Counted from the stretch's first letter, positions 5,785 to 63,451 are shown. The stretch: DNA of 64,000 nucleotides from Natrinema sp. SYSU A 869 (GCF_019879105.1 NZ_CP082249.1:3720001-3784000), one strand, 5' to 3'. Numbers and translations are program-made. The notes: a model not told the origin generated them from the letters alone.

Positions 5785-5894
5785 TCGGGCCCTCCCAAAT
5801 CGTGACGGTCCCCGATGAAACCCATTCTCTCGAGTCCGTCGGTACCAAGCCGACGATCGCGTTCTCCTGTACAAATACGTCTCTCGGTAGTCAA

Positions 5895-16010: not shown

Positions 16011-17914
16011 TGGTTGCAGATCTCCGACCGCTCGCCGCCGTGTTGGTGTCGGCGGTCGCCATCGTCCTGATCGTCGCGTCGCATCGCCGACCGAACCTTC
16101 GGGAGGGCTGGTCTGTGGTGGCCGCCCTCGCGAAGTTCGGAATCATCGTTAGCATGCTCCCCGCGGTCATGGACGGCACTGTCTTCCGGTGGAGTCTCTA
16201 CGACAGTACGGGCATCCAGTTCCTCGAGCACATCGACTTCGCCCTGCGAGCGGATCCACTGGGGATCTTCTTCGCCCTCCTTGCGAGTTTCCTCTGGATC
16301 TTCACGTCGTTTTACGCGACGGGGTACATGCGTGGACTCGACGAGCACTCCCAGACCCGCTTCTTCGCCTCCTTCGCGGCCAGCCTCTCGACGGCTGTCG
16401 GGATCGCGTTCGCGGCGAATCTGGTGACGATTTTCGTCTTCTACGAACTCCTCTCGCTGGTGACGTATCCGTTAGTCGCCCATAATGAGGACAACGAAGC
16501 ACGGATCGCCGGCCGGAAGTACCTCACGTACACGTTCTTCGGCGGCGGCGTCTTCCTGCTCGCCGGGACGGCCATTGTCTACTGGCTGACAAGTCTGGTC
16601 AGCCAAGGGCCGACCCTCGCCTTCGAAGCGGGCGGTATGGAGGCGCTGGCCGCGGCCGCACAGGTCGAACCGGTCTACGCACAGGCCGCCTTCTTCCTAC
16701 TCATCGCCGGTTTCGGCGTCAAGGCCGCGCTGATGCCGCTTCACTCCTGGCTCGCCGACGCGATGGTCGCGCCGACCCCCGTCTCCGGGCTGCTCCACGC
16801 GGTCGCGGTCGTCAAATCCGGCGCGTTCGGCATCGCTCGTGTCATCCTCGAAGTCTACGGCCCCGGGCTCATTCACGATCTTCCACTTGATGTGCCCGGC
16901 ATCGGCGACGTCGGATTGAACATCCCCGTTGCCATCGTCGCCGCGTTCACCCTGACCGCGGCGAGCATCATCGCGATGCGGAAGGATCATCTCAAGCGCC
17001 GGCTCGCGTACTCGACGACGGCCCAACTCTCCTACATCGTACTCGGGCTGTCGATGTTGCACCCCTACGCAATGGTCGGTGCGCTGTTTCACATCCCCGC
17101 CCACGCGTTCGCGAAACTCACGCTGTTCTTCTGTGCCGGCACGATCCACGTCGAGACCCACACCGACTACATCAGCGAGATGGCCGGTATCGGCAAGCGG
17201 ATGCCGCTAACGATGACCGCCTTTACCGTCGGTGCCGCAGGCATGGCCGGTCTCCCCCCGATCGCCGGCTTCGTCAGCAAGTTCTACATGCTGATCGGCG
17301 CTGGCTCCATGAGCGGCGAATACTGGCTCTTCGCCGGCGCTCTGTTGCTCTCAGCCGTTCTCAACGTCGCGTACTTCTGGCCGATCGTCTACACCGCCTT
17401 CTTCGAGAGCGAGGACCGACACGACGCGAAACCCCTGCTCGAGTTCCCGCGGGGCGGACTGGTCGAATCCTACACCGCTGGGACGGACGAGGACGTCGCC
17501 GCCGACGGTGGGCAGCCGACTGATGGCGAAGCCGATCGGGCCGATGCGGAGCGACCCGCCGCGGACGAGGACGAGAACTACGAGTACGCCGTCGACGAGT
17601 ACCCCAGCGACGCCGAAATTTCCGAAGGGGAGCAGGTCAGTACTGTCGACCACCACGGCGACCACGACGACCACCTGACCGGCGGGCCGCCGGCCGGTGG
17701 CTGGCCGCGTCACTCGCTGTTTACCGAGAGTACATGGCTCATGCTCGCGCCCATTGCCGTGATCGCGACCGGCGCGGTCGTTCTCGGGATCGGCCCCGAC
17801 TACGCCGTCTTCCTCGAGTTAGCCATGCGGATCGTCGAGGGCGTCTTCGGGATGCGCTTCGAGGACCTGACCGACGTTCCGTTCGAACAGCTCATTTCGG
17901 AGGTGAATAACTGA
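16010..17914 (+). CDS. Second proton-conducting antiporter subunit (MrpD/NuoL-like)
   Basis: A 634-residue protein with about 14 helices. It carries FVFYELLSLVTYPLVAHN, VKAALMPLHSWLADAMVAPTPVSGLLHAVAVVKSG and MRKDHLKRRLAYSTTAQL. A long acidic loop at about 485-565 includes HHGDHDDH, a His cluster of unknown use, just before the last helix. It begins on the last base of mnhD and ends one base into the third paralogue. Three D-like subunits in one operon are usual for haloarchaeal Mnh clusters. Confidence 0.9.
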   Translation: MVADLRPLAAVLVSAVAIVLIVASHRRPNLREGWSVVAALAKFGIIVSMLPAVMDGTVFRWSLYDSTGIQFLEHIDFALRADPLGIFFALLASFLWIFTSFYATGYMRGLDEHSQTRFFASFAASLSTAVGIAFAANLVTIFVFYELLSLVTYPLVAHNEDNEARIAGRKYLTYTFFGGGVFLLAGTAIVYWLTSLVSQGPTLAFEAGGMEALAAAAQVEPVYAQAAFFLLIAGFGVKAALMPLHSWLADAMVAPTPVSGLLHAVAVVKSGAFGIARVILEVYGPGLIHDLPLDVPGIGDVGLNIPVAIVAAFTLTAASIIAMRKDHLKRRLAYSTTAQLSYIVLGLSMLHPYAMVGALFHIPAHAFAKLTLFFCAGTIHVETHTDYISEMAGIGKRMPLTMTAFTVGAAGMAGLPPIAGFVSKFYMLIGAGSMSGEYWLFAGALLLSAVLNVAYFWPIVYTAFFESEDRHDAKPLLEFPRGGLVESYTAGTDEDVAADGGQPTDGEADRADAERPAADEDENYEYAVDEYPSDAEISEGEQVSTVDHHGDHDDHLTGGPPAGGWPRHSLFTESTWLMLAPIAVIATGAVVLGIGPDYAVFLELAMRIVEGVFGMRFEDLTDVPFEQLISEVNN

Positions 17915-19751
17915 TGGCAGTCGAACTCCTGTCGATGGCCTACCCGCCGCTCATCGTCTTCGCGGCGGCGCTGCTCGTGCTCGTCCTGCCCCGAATCGCC
18001 GGCTTCGCCGTCGGTGCGCTCAGCCTCGCGGCCGTGCTGGCGATTTCGCTGGTCGCGCCCGGCGGTGAGCATCTGGGCGGGACCTTCCTCGGCTTCAAGG
18101 TCGTCCCGTTCTACGTCGACGACTTCTCCCGAATGGTCGGGCTCGGCCTCGGCTTTTTGGGTATCTGTAGCGTTATCTACGCCTACTCGAGCGAGGCCAG
18201 TAAGACGCTAGTCGCATTCGCGCTGGTCTACGTCTCCTCGTCGATCGGCGCGGCATTCGCCGGCGACTGGCTCGTCCTCCTGTTTATGTGGGAGCTGATG
18301 GCAGTGACGAGCACGCTGGTGGTCTGGCACTACGGCAGCGAGGCGGTCCGGGCGGGCTTCCGGTACGCGTTGTTCCACGGCACCGGCGGCGTGCTCGTGA
18401 TGATGGCGGTCGCCGTCCACTACGTCGAGGTTGGTACGTTCGTCTACAGTGACGCCGGTATCGCCAACGGGATTCCGGCGCTGCTCGCGGTGCTCGGGAT
18501 GGGCGTCAACGTCGCCTTCATCGGCTTCCACACCTGGCTGCCCGACACCTACCCGCGACCGCACTTCGCGGCCTCGGTGTTCCTCTCCGTCTACACGACG
18601 AAGACGAGCGCATTCGTGCTCTACCGCGCGTTCCCCGTCGACGCCGGGAGCGATCTGGGTATTTACATCGCGTACATGGGCGGGCTGATGGCCGTCTACG
18701 GCGCGACCTTCGCCCTGCTGCAACACGACATGCGGGCGCTGCTGTCCTACCATATCCAGGCGCAGCTGGGCTACATCGTCGCCGGAATTGGCATGGCCAC
18801 GATGGGATCGGATCTCGCCGCCGCCGGCGCGATGAGTCACCTGTTCAACAACGTGCTGTTCAAGAGCCTGCTGTTCATGGCCGTCGGCGTCGTCATCTAT
18901 CGCACTGGCGAAGAGGATCTATACAAGCTGGGCGGCCTCTGGCGCGAAATGCCTCTGACCGCGATTGGGTTCGGGTTTGGTGCGCTCTCGATCACCGCGA
19001 TTCCGGGCTTCAACGGCTACGTCAGCAAGGGGATGCTCTTCGACGCCGCCAATCCCCACTACTACGGTCAGCCCGAGTATCAGGCGCTGTACTGGCTGCT
19101 CTGGATCGGCGCAATCGGGACCCTGCTGTCCTTCATCAAGCTCGGCTACTACGTCTTCTTCCACGGCAAGAGCGACCGCGAGGTCGCCGACGCGAAGCCC
19201 GGTCAGACCGTCGCGATGCTCGGCCTGGGCGGTGCCTGTCTCCTCTTCGGCGTCTGGTGGCAGGGGCTGGCCGATCTCGCGCCGACGATCCACGGTCTCG
19301 AGTTCGAGTACTACGGCGGCCACAGCCACCTCCACCCCTACAGTTCGGGCCACCTGCAGACCGCGGGTATCCTGACGGGGTCGCGGCCGTCACCTTCGTC
19401 CTCGTCCGGAAGCCGCTCTCGAAGCTCGATCTCGGTGATCCGGCGATGTTCGTCTATCCCGCAACCTACGCCGTCAGTCGCTGGACGATGCTGGGCGTCA
19501 CCGAGACCTACGCCGCCGTCGACCGGGCCGTCGTCGGCGCGGTCAAACGCTGTTACTGGATCGGGAACAACCCCGTTCTCGCCGTCGACGCGGCAGCGGG
19601 TCAGTTGCCCGACTGGCTGGTTGACGTCGACGAGCGCCAGCCGACCGACGGCGGTCGCCCGTCGACGATTCATCTCCGGACCAGTATCGGGACGACCGTC
19701 CTGCTGTTGACGCTCGTCCTGACGGTGATCCTGTGGCTTCTCGTCGTCTGA
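17914..19751 (+). CDS. Third proton-conducting antiporter subunit, with apparent frameshift
   Basis: Two frames join to one protein of about 612 residues. The first frame starts at 17914 and is family-like to HLQTAGILTG; the second carries on as VAAVTFVLVRKPLSKLDLG to the stop at 19751. The junction is a run of four G at 19377-19380; five would keep the frame (ACG GGG GTC). The first part has the usual motifs LFMWELMAVTSTLVVW, GFHTWLPDTYP and QHDMRALLSYH. I judge this a sequencing or assembly error, or a very recent mutation, as both halves look intact. Confidence 0.85.
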
Positions 19752-56563: not shown

Positions 56564-58390
56564 TCACTCACCGGTCGTCCAGCGAGCGTCCGCGAGCGTT
56601 CGCTGGACGACTTCGTTGCCGACTGCTTCCGCCAGCGTCTCGAACCCCGTCCGCTCGCTCCGGTCGCTCGCGTTCGCGACGAGTCGAGAGACGATGAACT
56701 CCGGCGTCGACCGGCCCACAGTGTCGAACCGGGGCTGATAGTCGACGAGTAACTCGAGGTCGGGGTTCAGTCCCTCCGCGAAGATGCCGTCGACCCGCGC
56801 TTCGGGCGGGAGGGGCTCTAAGTCATCCGCGAGGTGTGTGACGAACACGCCGAGCGCCTCGCGGTCAACCGAGAGCGTGACGAGCCCGTGGAGCAGGTCC
56901 GCCGCGCTGCCGGGTTCCGTGATCGCCTCGAACTCGTCGACCAGCATTAGGGTGCGACCGCCCGTCGAGAGTGGCGGCACGATCGAGCGCAGCGTGGATT
57001 CGAGGACGCCGGCGTTGAAACTCGCGTGGCGGCGATGGAAGACCAGCGAGTCGACGGGTGTCACCTCGGCCCGGTCTGCTGGAACCGGCAGTCCCATCGT
57101 CGCCAGCAGGACGACCTGACACAGCGTCTCGAGCAGGGTCGTCTTCCCGCCACTGTTGGCACCCGTCAGAACGGCGACGCGCTCTTCATCAGGAACCGCG
57201 TTGACGCCGGCCGGAACACTCGTCACGCCGTGCTCGCCGAGCGCGTAGGTGACCGGCTGGACTGACTCGTCATCGCGCGAAGCGAGCGTGATATTGCGCG
57301 CGTTGACGACGGAGACGGCGGCTTCGTCGCTCCCTCGCTCATTTCGTTCGTTCGTGTCTTCCGAGGTACTCCGCGCCTCGCCCTCGATGAAAATCGGACG
57401 GGTGCAGTCGTATTCGAGCGCGAAGCGCGCCAGCGAGAGGTGCAAGGCGATGTCGTCGACCGCCTCGACGGTCCGATCGATCGCATCGCGTGCATCCGCG
57501 AGCCGTTCCTCGAGATCGCTCGCGACGGCCTGCTCGCGCTCGTCGACCGCGTCGGTGAGGTCGCTCCGGAGCGTCCGCAGCGTGTCGCCGACGAAGTCGG
57601 TCGCGTCCGTCGCGTCGGTGGGCATCGCGTCCCGAACCCGGTCGATCGTCACGTCCGTCTCGGTCAGCAGGTGGTCTTCGAACGACTGTCGGAACCCTTC
57701 AGCGTCGTGGACGCCCTCGGCGCGCAGGTCCTCGATCAACGCGAGCGCGTTCGCATCCATGTCCTCAACGGCACCGAGTGCGTCCCGGAGGCGGTCGAGT
57801 TCCTCGTCAGCACCCTCCCGGACCCGGCCGCCGTCGAGCGCTGCCAGTGCCTCGGCGGCGTCTGCGAGCCGCTCGCGCTCGAGATCCGCGATCGCGGCGA
57901 AGGGTCCGGAATCGACGCCGGCTGCCAGCAATGCGAGCCCGGCCTCGACGGCGGCGTGCTCGCTCCCGCCGCGGTCGTCGTAGCGCTCGTAGGCCTCGAG
58001 CACGGCAGTGCGGTCATCGTCCGCGAGTTCGGCCCAAGCGTCTCGAGCCGCGAGCACGTCGTCGAGGCGCTCGTCCATCGCCTCACGGCTCTCTAGCGGT
58101 GTGAGCACCCGAATACGGTCTGCCGCGCGCTGGGTAACGGCATGTTCGACCGCGAGATCTAGTAACTCCTTGTACGCCGATCGGGCGTCGCTGGTCGCGA
58201 GAATAGCCATGCCAGCGCCGCCGGTCGCCCGACGAAGGATTCGCGTCGCTCGCCCGCGAGCGAGTCCAGCGTCCGCGAGCGTCCGCACGTCTCCACCCTC
58301 AATCGCCCGGATCGCCCGTTCCCGACCCAGTTCCTCGACCAGCGTTTCCCGCGTCTTCGGGCCGACCCCCCAGTACTCCTCGAGTCGCAT
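56564..58390 (-). CDS. Archaeal MutS5-like ATPase with N-terminal HhH
   Basis: A 608-residue protein. The N-terminus (EYWGVGPKTRETLVEELGRERAI) is a helix-hairpin-helix pair. Residues 65-400 are helical with a coiled coil. The ABC-type ATPase follows: Walker A GANSGGKTTLL near 409, FHRRHASFNAGVLESTL as Q-loop region, and Walker B LMLVDEFEAI near 480. There is no mismatch-recognition domain, so it belongs to the MutS2/MutS5 branch with roles in recombination rather than base mismatch repair. A low-complexity stretch (TNERNERGSDE) near 345 is probably a disordered loop. Confidence 0.88.
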   Translation of the reverse strand: MRLEEYWGVGPKTRETLVEELGRERAIRAIEGGDVRTLADAGLARGRATRILRRATGGAGMAILATSDARSAYKELLDLAVEHAVTQRAADRIRVLTPLESREAMDERLDDVLAARDAWAELADDDRTAVLEAYERYDDRGGSEHAAVEAGLALLAAGVDSGPFAAIADLERERLADAAEALAALDGGRVREGADEELDRLRDALGAVEDMDANALALIEDLRAEGVHDAEGFRQSFEDHLLTETDVTIDRVRDAMPTDATDATDFVGDTLRTLRSDLTDAVDEREQAVASDLEERLADARDAIDRTVEAVDDIALHLSLARFALEYDCTRPIFIEGEARSTSEDTNERNERGSDEAAVSVVNARNITLASRDDESVQPVTYALGEHGVTSVPAGVNAVPDEERVAVLTGANSGGKTTLLETLCQVVLLATMGLPVPADRAEVTPVDSLVFHRRHASFNAGVLESTLRSIVPPLSTGGRTLMLVDEFEAITEPGSAADLLHGLVTLSVDREALGVFVTHLADDLEPLPPEARVDGIFAEGLNPDLELLVDYQPRFDTVGRSTPEFIVSRLVANASDRSERTGFETLAEAVGNEVVQRTLADARWTTGE

Positions 58391-58508
58391 ACGTGATGAC
58401 TCGCGGCAACCGTCTTGAACACTGTGTCATCCGTCCGCGTAGTCGGATCGATTCCGATGGCGCGACCGGTCTCTGAGGGAGAAACTTCGATGTTCGCCGT
58501 CTCGACGG

Positions 58509-59666
58509 TTACCGGAGATAGCGGCGGAGCTGGACGCTAAGAGGGACGTTACGGGACTGGTCTCGGACGCGAATCTGCTTGAACCCGAGGAGGCCACCGA
58601 CGAACCCGAGGACGCTCGCGCCCAATAGACCGTTGATCGTCCCCCACGCGACCAGTGGATCGATCGCATGGAATCGCAGGAGTAGCGATGTCGGCAGTAC
58701 CCGGAGGTATCGATACTCCGACACCGCGACCGACCGTTCCTCGCCCGACGGGGGTGCCGTCGTCCGCAGCGACGCCGCGGACTCGCTCCCCGGCGCGAGC
58801 GGCACGGACCCAGGCTCGATCGACGCGTCGTTGGTTGCCGTCTCGAGGACGACCACCGTCGTGATAAGTCCGCCGTTGCGCATCGGGATCTCTGCCGTGA
58901 TCGACTCACCGGGTTCGATATCCTCGCTGCCGTCAGCGTCGACCGACATCGTATAGCCGCCGCTGGGTACGATCATCGCGGCGTTGGCCGGCACCAGCAC
59001 GAGCGTGAGGACTATCAGTGCGACGATGCGGGGATCGATACTATCGGCGTCGGTCGACCTGCGACGAGGGGGCCGACCCGGAGCCCGTCGTCTGGTCCCG
59101 ACAGTGAGTGTAACGACGAACAGTATCAGACCGACCCCGAACAGGACGAGGCCGGCGCTGCCGATTCCGGCACCGGCCTCGAGGCCGAGAGCGGCCAGTA
59201 TCGGGGCGAGAACCCAGCCGACGCCCCCACGGACGGTCTTGACGGCCGTTCCGAACTTCGGCAGGACGACGACACTACCGCCGACCTGAAGCGCGGTCGC
59301 GGCGATTCGGTCGTCGGTCACCGGCGGCTCGCCGGCGTCCTGATCGGCGAACGGATTGGCGTCGCCCTGCGTTCGATAACCGTCCGCCGTCTCGGCGACG
59401 ACCCGATGGGTCGTCAGCTGCCCGTCATTGACCTCGACCGACTCGAAGACCACGACATCGCCGGGCTCCGGATCACCGGTCACCTGGGACGGAATAGCGA
59501 CGAAGCCGTCCCCGGGCTCAAGGGTCGGCTCCATGCTGCCAGTCTCGACGAACACCAGAAAAACCGGCTGTCCAAGCAGTTGGCCGGCGATCAGGGCTAG
59601 CGTCGCCGCGATCACCACGACGGTGAGGCTGAGTTCGGCCCATCGGCGAACCCGTGACGATGTCAC
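58509..59666 (-). CDS. Signal peptidase I, archaeal His-type (SipW/Sec11-like)
   Basis: A 385-residue serine peptidase. The nucleophile is in ETGSMEPTLEPGD, Ser near residue 44; the general base is His in LTTHRVVAE near 87, not Lys, as in SipW and Sec11. GDANPFAD holds the next conserved Asp. One helix precedes the site; from residue 155 to the end there are two or three more helices and an extra extracellular beta domain absent from housekeeping enzymes. It is the first gene of a surface-protein locus and may process the two SipW-cognate-like proteins nearby. Confidence 0.9.
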   Translation of the reverse strand: MTSSRVRRWAELSLTVVVIAATLALIAGQLLGQPVFLVFVETGSMEPTLEPGDGFVAIPSQVTGDPEPGDVVVFESVEVNDGQLTTHRVVAETADGYRTQGDANPFADQDAGEPPVTDDRIAATALQVGGSVVVLPKFGTAVKTVRGGVGWVLAPILAALGLEAGAGIGSAGLVLFGVGLILFVVTLTVGTRRRAPGRPPRRRSTDADSIDPRIVALIVLTLVLVPANAAMIVPSGGYTMSVDADGSEDIEPGESITAEIPMRNGGLITTVVVLETATNDASIEPGSVPLAPGSESAASLRTTAPPSGEERSVAVSEYRYLRVLPTSLLLRFHAIDPLVAWGTINGLLGASVLGFVGGLLGFKQIRVRDQSRNVPLSVQLRRYLR

Positions 59667-59837
59667 GTCTCGAGTGAGTGTCGAGTCGGATATAATGATT
59701 CGGGCCGAAAGGATCGCTGCTATTGCGAGGGTTGTCTCATTCGGTAATTGTCCATCTGTCGATATACAAAAACGTGTTCAAAACAGTCGTAGATTGGTAT
59801 CAGTTCAGATACTGATTGCCGTGCTACCGAAACCGAG

Positions 59838-60562
59838 TTACATGGTAACTCTCTCGGCGGTGACTGTCGCAGTCAGATTGAGGCTGTGTGTTCCACTAGC
59901 ACTTCCCGTATCAACGGTAATCACTCCAGCTGCAACGCCAGAGTGGCTGTCGGAAAGCGAAGCACTACCGGGACTGTTAGCGTTGAGGACGAATTCAGCG
60001 ACTTGATCCCCCGCTGTGCTTCCGCTGCTCGCCGTCGATCCCGTTAATGTACTGAAGTCGGTACCACCATCGCCCGTTCCCGACGCCGTCTGATCAAGCG
60101 CACTATTATCGCTGTCACCGCTAAAGTCGAACGCGACCTTATTCAGCGTTGTGTCCGTCTGAATGTCAACGGTCACACCGAGCGCATTAGTGCTAGTGTC
60201 AGTGAACCCAGAATTGTCCTGAATGACAAATGCAATCGCTTCGGCCGTGGGACTGCTGTCCAAAGCAGTTGCGCTTACGGTGCTGTCTCCGACTGTCAGG
60301 ACTGCATCGGTGTTGAGCGTTTCGTTCGAGAAGTTGATTACGACTGCCCCGTTGGCGTCCTCTGAGATGTCGGCAAAAGCACCGTCAGGCGATGCACCGG
60401 GTGCGATTCCGGCTGCTGAAGCCGAGTCGTTGTCGACGTTAATCGAAAGATCCCTGTTTGCCTCTACTTGTGTGAACGCGCCCGAACCGAAAACCGCGCC
60501 GCTAGCTGCTGCTGTTCCGCCGATTCCGAGTAATACGTGTCGTCGATTGATGTTTTCTTCAT
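59838..60562 (-). CDS. SipW-cognate-type surface protein, frame broken near the start
   Basis: A protein of about 241 residues. The body is clear: after NINRRHVLLGIGGTAAASGA and GSGAFTQVEANRDLSINV, a Ser/Thr/Asp/Gly-rich beta-sandwich follows to the end. The signal motif fits haloarchaeal SipW-cognate/DUF1102-like proteins. The expected ATG at 60562 is in another frame: an A4 run (plus-strand T4 at 60553-60556) would have to be A5 to join ATG AAG AAA AAC ATC AAT. So either one A is missing in the assembly or the gene is off. This is a fibre-subunit candidate. Confidence 0.72.
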
Positions 60563-60902
60563 GATTGGGTCTCTGTCCTCTCTTGCGGGAGAGACGGACC
60601 CCCCTTTCCCATTTCCCACGCCCTCTCCCCTCGAGACCCCACCCATATCATATTAGGCTGCGTGAAGATCCTCACGAGGTGCCATATAGCGATTCCCACC
60701 GCGTTGGAACCGGGATCACGGGGACCCATACGCCACTTCGGACCGTTTTCGGCATTGGTGGGATCGCTCTGATCCCGCCCGGATTGCTGTCCGAAGATGT
60801 GAAATACGTGACTATAAAATCATATAGTCTGTCATATCTGACAAAACTACTATAATACTGGTGTCTGAAGAGTACTAAACCGGCCGTAGACCGCAATCAA
60901 AC
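60563..60902. other. Divergent promoter region of the surface-protein locus
   Basis: Separates the minus-strand surface protein from the plus-strand regulator. It holds AT-rich patches at 60811-60858 (ACTATAAAAT, then ACTATAATAC) that could serve the regulator, and CTATA-6-TATAG is an inverted repeat at about 60812-60827. A possible minus-strand promoter is at 60655-60665. The DUF7344 protein could bind here to control both directions. Confidence 0.45.
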
Positions 60903-61436
60903 GTGAATACAGGAACATCACTCACAGAAGACGAAGTGTACACACTTCTGAGTAGTTGTCGGCGTCGGTACGCGCTGCATGCGTGTCTGCAGACCGAGTC
61001 AACGATCACTCTCTCGGATCTCGCCGAACAGGTGGCCGCCTGGGAGTACGAGAAATCTCTCGAGGCGGTGAGTTCCGAGGAACGGCGGCGAGTGTACACG
61101 TCGCTCCAACAGACCCACCTCCCGAAGATGGACCGGTGGGGCGTGGTCGAGTTCGAGCGTGGCGTAATCGAACCGACGGAGCAGGCCTCCGAGATCGGGG
61201 TGTATATGGACGTGGTCCCCGCGAACTCCATCCCGTGGGCGCATTACTACCTTGGCGTGGCGGCCATCGCCGCAGCGGTCACCGGGGGCGTCTGGTTGGG
61301 GATCTATCCCGAGACGATCCCCGACCTGCTGTGGGCGACCCTCATCTCCGGTGTCTTCCTACTCTCGGCCGCGGCTCACGTCTGGCAGACCACCCGCACC
61401 GAGCTCGGACGCGACGGTCCGCACCCGGAACTCTAA
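60903..61436 (+). CDS. Membrane-anchored DUF7344 helix-turn-helix regulator
   Basis: A 177-residue protein. Residues 10-95 hold the DUF7344 winged helix: LTEDEVYTLLSSCRRRYALHACLQTESTITLSDLAEQVAAWE and RVYTSLQQTHLPKMDRWGVVEFERG. Two C-terminal helices (YLGVAAIAAAVTGGVWLG and WATLISGVFLLSAAAHVW) anchor it to the membrane. The start is GTG at 60903; no ATG suits. It likely controls this locus. The gene is followed by the next after two bases. Confidence 0.82.
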   Translation: MNTGTSLTEDEVYTLLSSCRRRYALHACLQTESTITLSDLAEQVAAWEYEKSLEAVSSEERRRVYTSLQQTHLPKMDRWGVVEFERGVIEPTEQASEIGVYMDVVPANSIPWAHYYLGVAAIAAAVTGGVWLGIYPETIPDLLWATLISGVFLLSAAAHVWQTTRTELGRDGPHPEL

Positions 61437-61438
61437 TC

Positions 61439-61975
61439 GTGACCAAACCTGACCCCTGGCGTCGTCGGCGGTATACCCGCCGAACAGCCCTCGGGCTGAT
61501 GCTCGCCGGCGGGTCCGTGACCGCGCTCGGAACGGCCGGGTTCGCGAATCTGACTGCCGGCCGAGACGTAGCACTCAGCATCTCGACGGACGACCAGGCG
61601 TCGCTGACCATCGTCGACGACGCGACCGGAGAGCCGATCGAAAATAATTCGCCGTACACCGGCGACCTCGACGTCCAGTTCGACACGACCACCGGGGGTA
61701 TGATCGACGTGACGGGGGCGATCACTGGCGATACAGAACTGATATCGCTCTCCAAAGCGGTCGATAACGGCACCTACACGTTCACGATCGACGGAACTGA
61801 TTTTAATATCACCGACCTGACGGCGGGCGAGTCCGATCCGCCGGTCCTCCGGGTCACGAACACCGAGGATCCCGGCGGAGCCGACGCGGCAATCAGTCTC
61901 GACGTTACGGCCGACATCGACGGCGTTTCGCTCGAGCTAACGCGCGCGGTAACCGTTACCGCCCCAGAATCATGA
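61439..61975 (+). CDS. Second SipW-cognate-type surface protein
   Basis: A 178-residue protein starting with GTG at 61439 (MTKPDPWRRRRYTRRT). The signal helix ALGLMLAGGSVTALGTAGFA is followed by NLTAGRDVALSIS, matching the GTAxFAxxTAxRDVxxxI pattern of haloarchaeal SipW-cognate signals. The mature part is about 140 residues of beta-rich, Asp/Thr-rich sequence. It ends four bases into the DUF5305 gene. It is a possible minor pilin or fibre anchor. Confidence 0.75.
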   Translation: MTKPDPWRRRRYTRRTALGLMLAGGSVTALGTAGFANLTAGRDVALSISTDDQASLTIVDDATGEPIENNSPYTGDLDVQFDTTTGGMIDVTGAITGDTELISLSKAVDNGTYTFTIDGTDFNITDLTAGESDPPVLRVTNTEDPGGADAAISLDVTADIDGVSLELTRAVTVTAPES

Positions 61976-63347
61976 TCGACGATCTCGACCCGGGGACCGT
62001 ACTCCTCCTCCGGCGGTACTTCACTGTCATGGTGCTCCTCTCTGTAGTCCTGGTAGCGACCGGTGGATACGCCGCATATGGAGCGTACGCGGACGACGGG
62101 TATCGGACCGAACGCGAGGTGACCGCGACATGGACGCCCGAGACCGGCTTCGATCACAGCGCGACCGTCCAGAACGAGTCGTCCGTCTTCGAGACCGGCG
62201 ACGTACTCACGAACCGACCGATATACTTCAGCCGCGTCGCGCCCGAACTGGACGGGACCTACGTCGTGAGCCACGCCGGCGATGTCGAGGCGGCGACCGT
62301 CACCGTCGACCTCGCGCTCGAACTTCGGGCGGTCGAGGATCGAGGTGGTGAGTCGACGGTCCACTGGCGGGAGACCGAACCGCTTGCGTCGACGAGAATT
62401 GCCAGCCTCGAGCCGGGCGAGCGGCAGGAGATCCCGTTTTCGGTATCCGTCGCAACCCTCGAGCGGCGTCTCGACGCTATTGAGGGCGAGCTTGGAGCTT
62501 CACCGGGAACGACCGAGGTCGTAATCACTGCCGAGACGGAGATCGAGACCGCGACGGGTGACGAGTCCTTCGTTGATACCCGGACCGATACCCTCGAACT
62601 CGAGCCGGGCGGGAATACGTATCGAGTGACTGCCAACCTCGCGGATGATCGCCAGTACGAGGCGACGAACCGCGTCCGGACCCCGGTTGAGTCGTCGCCG
62701 CTCGCGAGCTATGGGGGGGGGGGGTGGTGCTGGCCCTCGGCGGGATCGCCAGTCTGGCGGTCTTGGGATGGGGGCGACATCGCTGCCTGTTCGCGGTCAC
62801 GGCAGCAGACCGTGCTCGAGTCGAGTATCGACGAGCCCGCGCGGACTTCGACGACTGGATCTCCGCCGGGACCGTCCCCGAAGACGACGACCGGACCAGA
62901 GTGACGGTCGAATCGCTCGCCGCGATCGCGGACGTAGCAATCGATACGGACCGGCGGGTAATCCAGATCGACGGGCCAACGTACGTCGTCCTCGTTGAGG
63001 ACGTCCGCTACGTCTACGAACCGCCGGCCGACGTGGCAGTGGCCAGCAGTGAGGATACAAGCGATCCGACCATTGGAACGGCATCGGCGACCGAAGTCGT
63101 CGCGGACGATCCGATCGACGCGACAGACCGGCACGCCGCGGATACGCAATCCGATGCGATCGACCAAGGCGTGACTGACGAGGCGAGCGAGCGGGACGTC
63201 CCCGACGAGTGGGAGTTTGGCGAACCGGCCGGAGATGCTGACCCCAGCGACGAATCGGATGACGATCCCGACGACTGGATATTCGACGATTCCTCGACCA
63301 TCGAGGAGGAGCGCGAGCAGTCTCCTCGTGAGCGAGAAGCGGACTGA
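61972..63347 (+). CDS. DUF5305 membrane protein, frame broken at a 12-G tract
   Basis: The first frame starts at 61972 (MIDDLDPGTVLLLRRYFTV, one helix near 17-37) and gives a DUF5305-type extracellular domain to about residue 247 (PLASY). A G12 tract at 62713-62724 breaks it; the second frame starts VVLALGGIASLAVLGWGR, the second helix, and carries a cytoplasmic domain (WISAGTVPEDDDRTRVTVESLAAIADVAID) with an acidic tail to 63347. G10 or G13 would join them. In SipW-like archaeal loci DUF5305 proteins lie next to the signal peptidase; the fixed protein has about 457 residues. Confidence 0.8.
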
Positions 63348-63451
63348 CACCATCGAAGATACCCACAAACGTGTATAATGTCGTGTGTCAGTGACGGAAT
63401 TCGACGCACAAACACGAGGATTTTTATCGGCTCGGTGCCCTACTGACTTCC

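Follow-up and report, generated by a model that had tools for sequence, protein, structure and literature searches.

A divergent, probably horizontally acquired cassette of the Tat-fimbriae type in a haloarchaeal chromosome

Does a compact group of five genes, in which a signal peptidase, two small secreted proteins, a presumed regulator and a membrane protein lie side by side, constitute a system for building surface fibres? The group is found in the window, the stretch of 64,000 nucleotides analysed here (G000:C3:3720001-3784000), which is part of a 5.67-Mb haloarchaeal genome of the genus Natrinema. The first-pass annotation had proposed that the group is a fibre system of haloarchaea, served by a dedicated peptidase and under local control. 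That proposal is supported by four NCBIfam fimbrial families, by co-occurrence and by a relative deposited as a pilin, but the system had already been described: haloarchaeal Tat-fimbriae (tafi) were reported by Galeva et al. (2025, iScience 28:111793), as cited in PMC12687288, and TafE and TafC are families of these fimbriae. The locus is real and recurring and belongs to an already known type of system, and the copy in the window is a divergent variant of it. We consider it likely that the segment from 58467 to 63363 is a horizontally acquired, divergent tafi-type cassette, working in the manner proposed below.

The five genes listed by the first-pass annotation are all present (Table 1), the divergent layout of the fibre gene and the regulator gene is confirmed from the sequence, and the span given there, 58509-63347, is almost identical to the insert mapped by blastn. 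Three further points had escaped it, namely the lack of TafA, the origin of the cassette outside the genus and the frameshifts in two genes.

Table 1. Coordinates of the features of the locus, counted from the first base of the window.
Feature	Coordinates	Strand	Remarks
Signal peptidase I, ER/archaeal-type	58509..59666	-	385 aa; TIGR02228 above cut-off
TafE-type fimbrial subunit	59838..60557	-	239 codons in frame; NCBIfam TafE below cut-off
Divergent intergenic promoter region	60563..60902	.	52.6% GC; inverted repeat
DUF7344 protein, presumed local regulator	60903..61436	+	Pfam PF24035, 2e-26
TafC-like secreted protein	61439..61975	+	178 aa; NCBIfam TafC below cut-off
DUF5305 membrane protein, interrupted	61972..63347	+	Pfam PF17231 in two frames
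12-G homopolymer at the DUF5305 frameshift	62713..62724	+	Sequence, genome G-tract comparison, alignment to relatives
Inserted segment, mutS-family gene to purF	58467..63363	.	Approximate limits; blastn to eight relatives and flank searches

The peptidase matches TIGR02228 with 53.5 bits and does have an extra extracellular part, as annotated earlier, in the form of a long C-terminal extracytoplasmic region. Residues S44, H87, D102 and D108 are invariant among 13 homologues; from knowledge of the family, we take Ser44, His87 and the two Asp residues to be the site of an ER-type peptidase. Identity to any match found is at most about 50%, and the genome's own second copy (locus L008) is 37-39% identical. 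In a tree of 85 peptidases, the window copy sits on a long branch within a clade of 25 rows (support 100/100) that includes the tafi loci of Haloarcula, Haloferax and Halorubrum, and the second copy clusters with Natrinema altunense and N. pallidum. With the SipW equivalog model the window peptidase scores 30.9 bits, far below the cut-off of 190.

The homology of the two small proteins to fimbrial subunits is clear and divergent, neither reaching the curated cut-off of its family. The TafE-type protein matches NCBIfam TafE (7.6e-18) with 64.8 bits against a cut-off of 155, and it also matches NCBIfam TafA (1.1e-8). The TafC-like protein matches NCBIfam TafC (3.8e-7) with 29.6 bits against a cut-off of 410, and a local TafC profile gave 1e-13, covering positions 3-143 of 377; canonical TafC has a LamG/concanavalin-like domain, and the window protein is without it. 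The TafC and TafE profiles are themselves homologous (profile comparison, 99.8% probability). Both proteins are secreted and rich in Ser, Thr, Gly and Asp. The first-pass annotation was right that their signals are like those of SipW cognates, but it overlooked that the signals, NRRHVLL in the one and TRRTALG in the other, are also of the twin-arginine type that marks tafi subunits. The arrangement RR-x19-GAF-x6-R recurs in 81 of 100 related subunits, and the window fibre protein is an exact fit. TasA, which is processed by SipW, has a Phe at P2' (PMC10269814); GAF would have the same layout if it were cut before the A, which is the cutting point that we infer.

In the PDB, the subunit family has a single significant match, 9p0a, an entry deposited under the name "Pilin" and found at 2e-6 with the window protein alone (residues 3-208) and at 5e-46 with the family profile, the homology spanning the whole subunit. 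Entry 9p0a is 92% identical to a TafE-type protein of Natrinema altunense, whose gene sits in a peptidase-CARDB-DUF5305 locus. The AlphaFold models of the fibre protein (43 sequences, pLDDT 57.8) and of the TafC-like protein (22 sequences, pLDDT 52.4) consist mostly of strands and are of low confidence. With the former model Foldseek gave no matches, TasA and AbpA included, and with the latter it gave weak immunoglobulin-like matches from which TasA and AbpA were absent. We make no fold claim for either protein, because the models are of low confidence and the searches were empty or weak. Matches to VCBS, Cep192 and DUF2398 at the locus were set aside for their weak scores.

The DUF7344 protein is judged, from its sequence and from knowledge of the family, to be of the winged-helix type with C-terminal membrane segments, and it is presumed to be a local regulator. 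The inverted repeat GACTATA-N6-TATAGTC lies upstream of its gene in the divergent promoter region. A search for a conserved operator before DUF7344 genes found the window's TGTCA-N4-TGACA type in one of 104 distinct upstream regions.

A scan for this peptidase gave 80 named loci, of which the 53 with enough flank were used for counts. A TafA/E-type subunit is present in 51 of these, DUF5305 and DUF7344 in 47 each and a TafC-type protein in 46, and all five components stand together in 39, counts that are conditional on the peptidase because the loci were selected by it. The co-occurrence of the five-gene set is far above chance, and the check across haloarchaea bears out the earlier view of the genes as a unit. 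DUF5305 occurs in two places only in the window's genome, both adjoining such a peptidase.

The reference for comparison is a Haloarcula-type locus (L070, genome G084) with a peptidase nearly identical to the Haloarcula amylolytica one; it has TafA, TafC, TafE and TafF above cut-off together with DUF7344 and DUF5305, and its peptidase is of the same kind as in the window. In another locus (L073) the genes run peptidase-TafF-TafE / TafA-DUF7344-TafC-DUF5305; with TafF and TafA taken away, this is the gene order of the window. A tafi-clade ER-type peptidase linked to DUF7344 and DUF5305, as expected of a tafi locus, is found in the window. No TafA above cut-off was found in the genome, where the best scores were 54.5 and 30.9 bits against 190, and a TafF-type profile had no match among the ORFs of the insert. 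With TafA and TafF missing and every subunit short of its curated cut-off, we do not claim strict tafi membership. Compact loci without TafA, TafF and CARDB are also found in Natronococcus (L159, L168, L212). In many Natrialbaceae loci, a CARDB-domain protein (L008:12077-13249, minus strand, and relatives) replaces TafF between the peptidase and the subunit.

In 23 of 28 other Natrinema genomes, flank searches find less than 1 kb between the mutS-family gene and purF. The GC content of the insert, 61.9%, is slightly below that of the rest (63.8%). Since the peptidase falls inside the tafi clade, apart from the Natrinema copies, and the site is empty in those 23 genomes, the cassette was probably acquired horizontally and is foreign to the genus, an origin that these sequence comparisons strongly support. 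The ends of the insert carry no repeats that form a clear target duplication, and no integrase was found among its genes. Loci of the tafi type are also carried on megaplasmids, such as pHl5678-1 of Haloferax larsenii, and megaplasmids are a plausible route of transfer.

The site itself has a varied content. The mutS-family gene at 56564-58390 (minus strand) encodes a conserved 608-aa MutS-family ATPase found in all 29 Natrinema genomes searched. Four other Natrinema genomes (G025, G091, G107, G193) have a gap of about 3.6 kb from it to purF, and in the two such gaps that were read (L224, L228) lies a gene for a 1025-aa FAD-linked oxidase-like protein; since these Natrinema have a different gene in the gap, the site has the look of an insertion hot spot. 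The same site in the closest relative, G144, is occupied by a one-strand cassette (L223:4524-7774) of a fibre-like protein, a 318-aa peptidase, a TafC-like protein and DUF5305, the fibre-like protein having a Sec-like signal without twin arginine. Peptidases similar to that of G144 are found in 10 of 194 haloarchaeal genomes, several of them adjoining the same Sec-type fibre gene, and the operon is possibly a Sec-dependent sister of tafi.

As assembled, two genes of the cassette are out of frame. The fibre gene had been annotated as a single ORF from 59838 to 60562, which does not hold: the coding frame has no ATG, GTG or TTG start upstream, and the ATG at 60560-60562 is shifted against it by one base. 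One extra A in the A4 run between this ATG and the coding frame would restore the start MKKNINRR. The family assignment of DUF5305 stands, with PF17231 positions 1-117 matched at 6e-24 in the part 61972-62712 and positions 119-217 at 1.5e-21 in the part 62724-63347, but this gene is not a single ORF either, its reading frame breaking at the 12-G run. In an alignment to intact relatives, 10 G instead of 12 would restore YGGxV gap-free. Sequencing or assembly error is the simplest and most likely cause of both frameshifts; otherwise the cassette would be decaying. Assembly error is the first suspect because indels are common enough in the assembly: when 524 kb of this genome was scanned with a codon model, other conserved genes also showed frame breaks (among the 33 filtered calls are antisense false positives, and the number does not give a rate). 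An M20 peptidase gene (L008:373-1832, minus strand) is split by a frameshift into Pfam halves 1-49 and 57-205. An Mrp/Nuo-type antiporter gene (window ORFs 17911-19707 and 18453-19748, plus strand) switches frame at a GGGG run at 19374, which, from a reading of the translations, is probably an assembly indel.

If the frameshifts in the fibre gene and DUF5305 were real, this would be a dead, decaying tafi locus that has lost TafA and TafF and makes no product, a reading that we regard as unlikely. Two separate frameshifts inside 2.2 kb, the missing TafA and TafF and the intact vertical copy elsewhere in the genome (L008) would all fit decay. Yet each break is a one- or two-base homopolymer indel, and there are otherwise no internal stops; the M20 peptidase, the antiporter and others show that indels affect conserved genes elsewhere in the assembly, and the peptidase, DUF7344 and TafC-like genes are intact, with the conserved residues of the peptidase kept. 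On another reading, this might be a general secretion locus, its peptidase and small proteins serving a non-fibrous surface or signalling function. The broad TafA/E-type family signal is widespread, with 219 of 292 genomes having it, and members with low scores do not necessarily polymerise; however, the reference locus is fimbrial by four named families and a member of the family has been deposited as a pilin (9p0a), and we hold a non-fibrous role to be improbable.

The 12-G run raises a further possibility, that of a slippage switch by which DUF5305, and hence fimbria assembly, would be turned on and off through phase variation. Surface structures are classic targets of such homopolymer switches. 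No longer G tract was found in the genome, which has just three G/C tracts of at least 10, and the run is the sole intragenic one; the G runs in the other DUF5305 genes of the set do not exceed 7. The other two tracts (L122:5443-5452 and 5803-5812) are 360 bases apart in similar intergenic repeats, GGCGATCTAAGAC..CTGTCGCCACCCCCCCCC; being intergenic, they do nothing to strengthen the idea of a gene switch. Moreover, the tract is known from one genome, in which a second length variant was not seen, homopolymers are also prone to assembly failure, and the second break, in the fibre gene, falls at an A-run shorter than a typical switch would need. We regard such a switch as very improbable. More doubtful still is the boldest combination, an acquired minimal cassette in which the TafE-type protein replaces TafA as the main subunit and DUF5305 is switched by 12-G slippage, which would amount to phase variation of an archaeal pilus.

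With an acquired tafi-type cassette as the preferred explanation, a mechanism can be outlined. The TafE-type and TafC-type subunits would fold in the cytoplasm and be exported by Tat, as their twin-arginine motif suggests. The linked ER-type peptidase would cut next to GAF and free the N-terminus, by analogy with SipW and TasA, and the freed N-terminal strand could then link neighbouring subunits into a thin fibre, in keeping with the deposition of a relative as a pilin. The strict linkage of DUF5305 suggests a membrane protein without which assembly or anchoring would fail, and DUF7344 may be a winged-helix regulator, tethered to the membrane, that acts on the divergent promoter. Since TafA is absent, the part of main subunit would fall to the TafE-type protein, which may also be the case at other loci of Natrialbaceae. 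More broadly, DUF5305 and DUF7344, both unnamed families, are tied together with a dedicated peptidase to fimbria loci across many haloarchaea, and their roles become testable. The locus also suggests that cassettes of this type pass from genus to genus and enter a recurrent chromosomal site, and that a tafi-type cluster can exist without TafA.

Among known systems, the archaeal bundling pili of Pyrobaculum (AbpA), described in PMC9674648 as a donor-strand fibre related to TasA, gave no sequence match to the window subunits and no Foldseek match with the weak models. The Bacillus tapA-sipW-tasA operon likewise has a dedicated ER-type peptidase beside fibre subunits, with a Phe just after the predicted cleavage point. 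It differs in that the window signals are Tat and the Bacillus signals Sec, in the low SipW score of the window peptidase, and in that the weak models yielded no structural match. The N. altunense-type locus, with the 9p0a pilin and its peptidase-CARDB-DUF5305 order, shares subunit family, peptidase family and genus with the window; it has come down by vertical descent in Natrinema and includes a CARDB protein, whereas the window copy is of a different, foreign lineage. In comparison with the Haloarcula tafi, the window is without TafA and TafF, its subunits score below the cut-offs, its TafC-like protein is without LamG and two of its genes are out of frame, but the two have in common TafE- and TafC-type subunits with twin-arginine signals, a linked peptidase of the same clade, DUF7344 and DUF5305.
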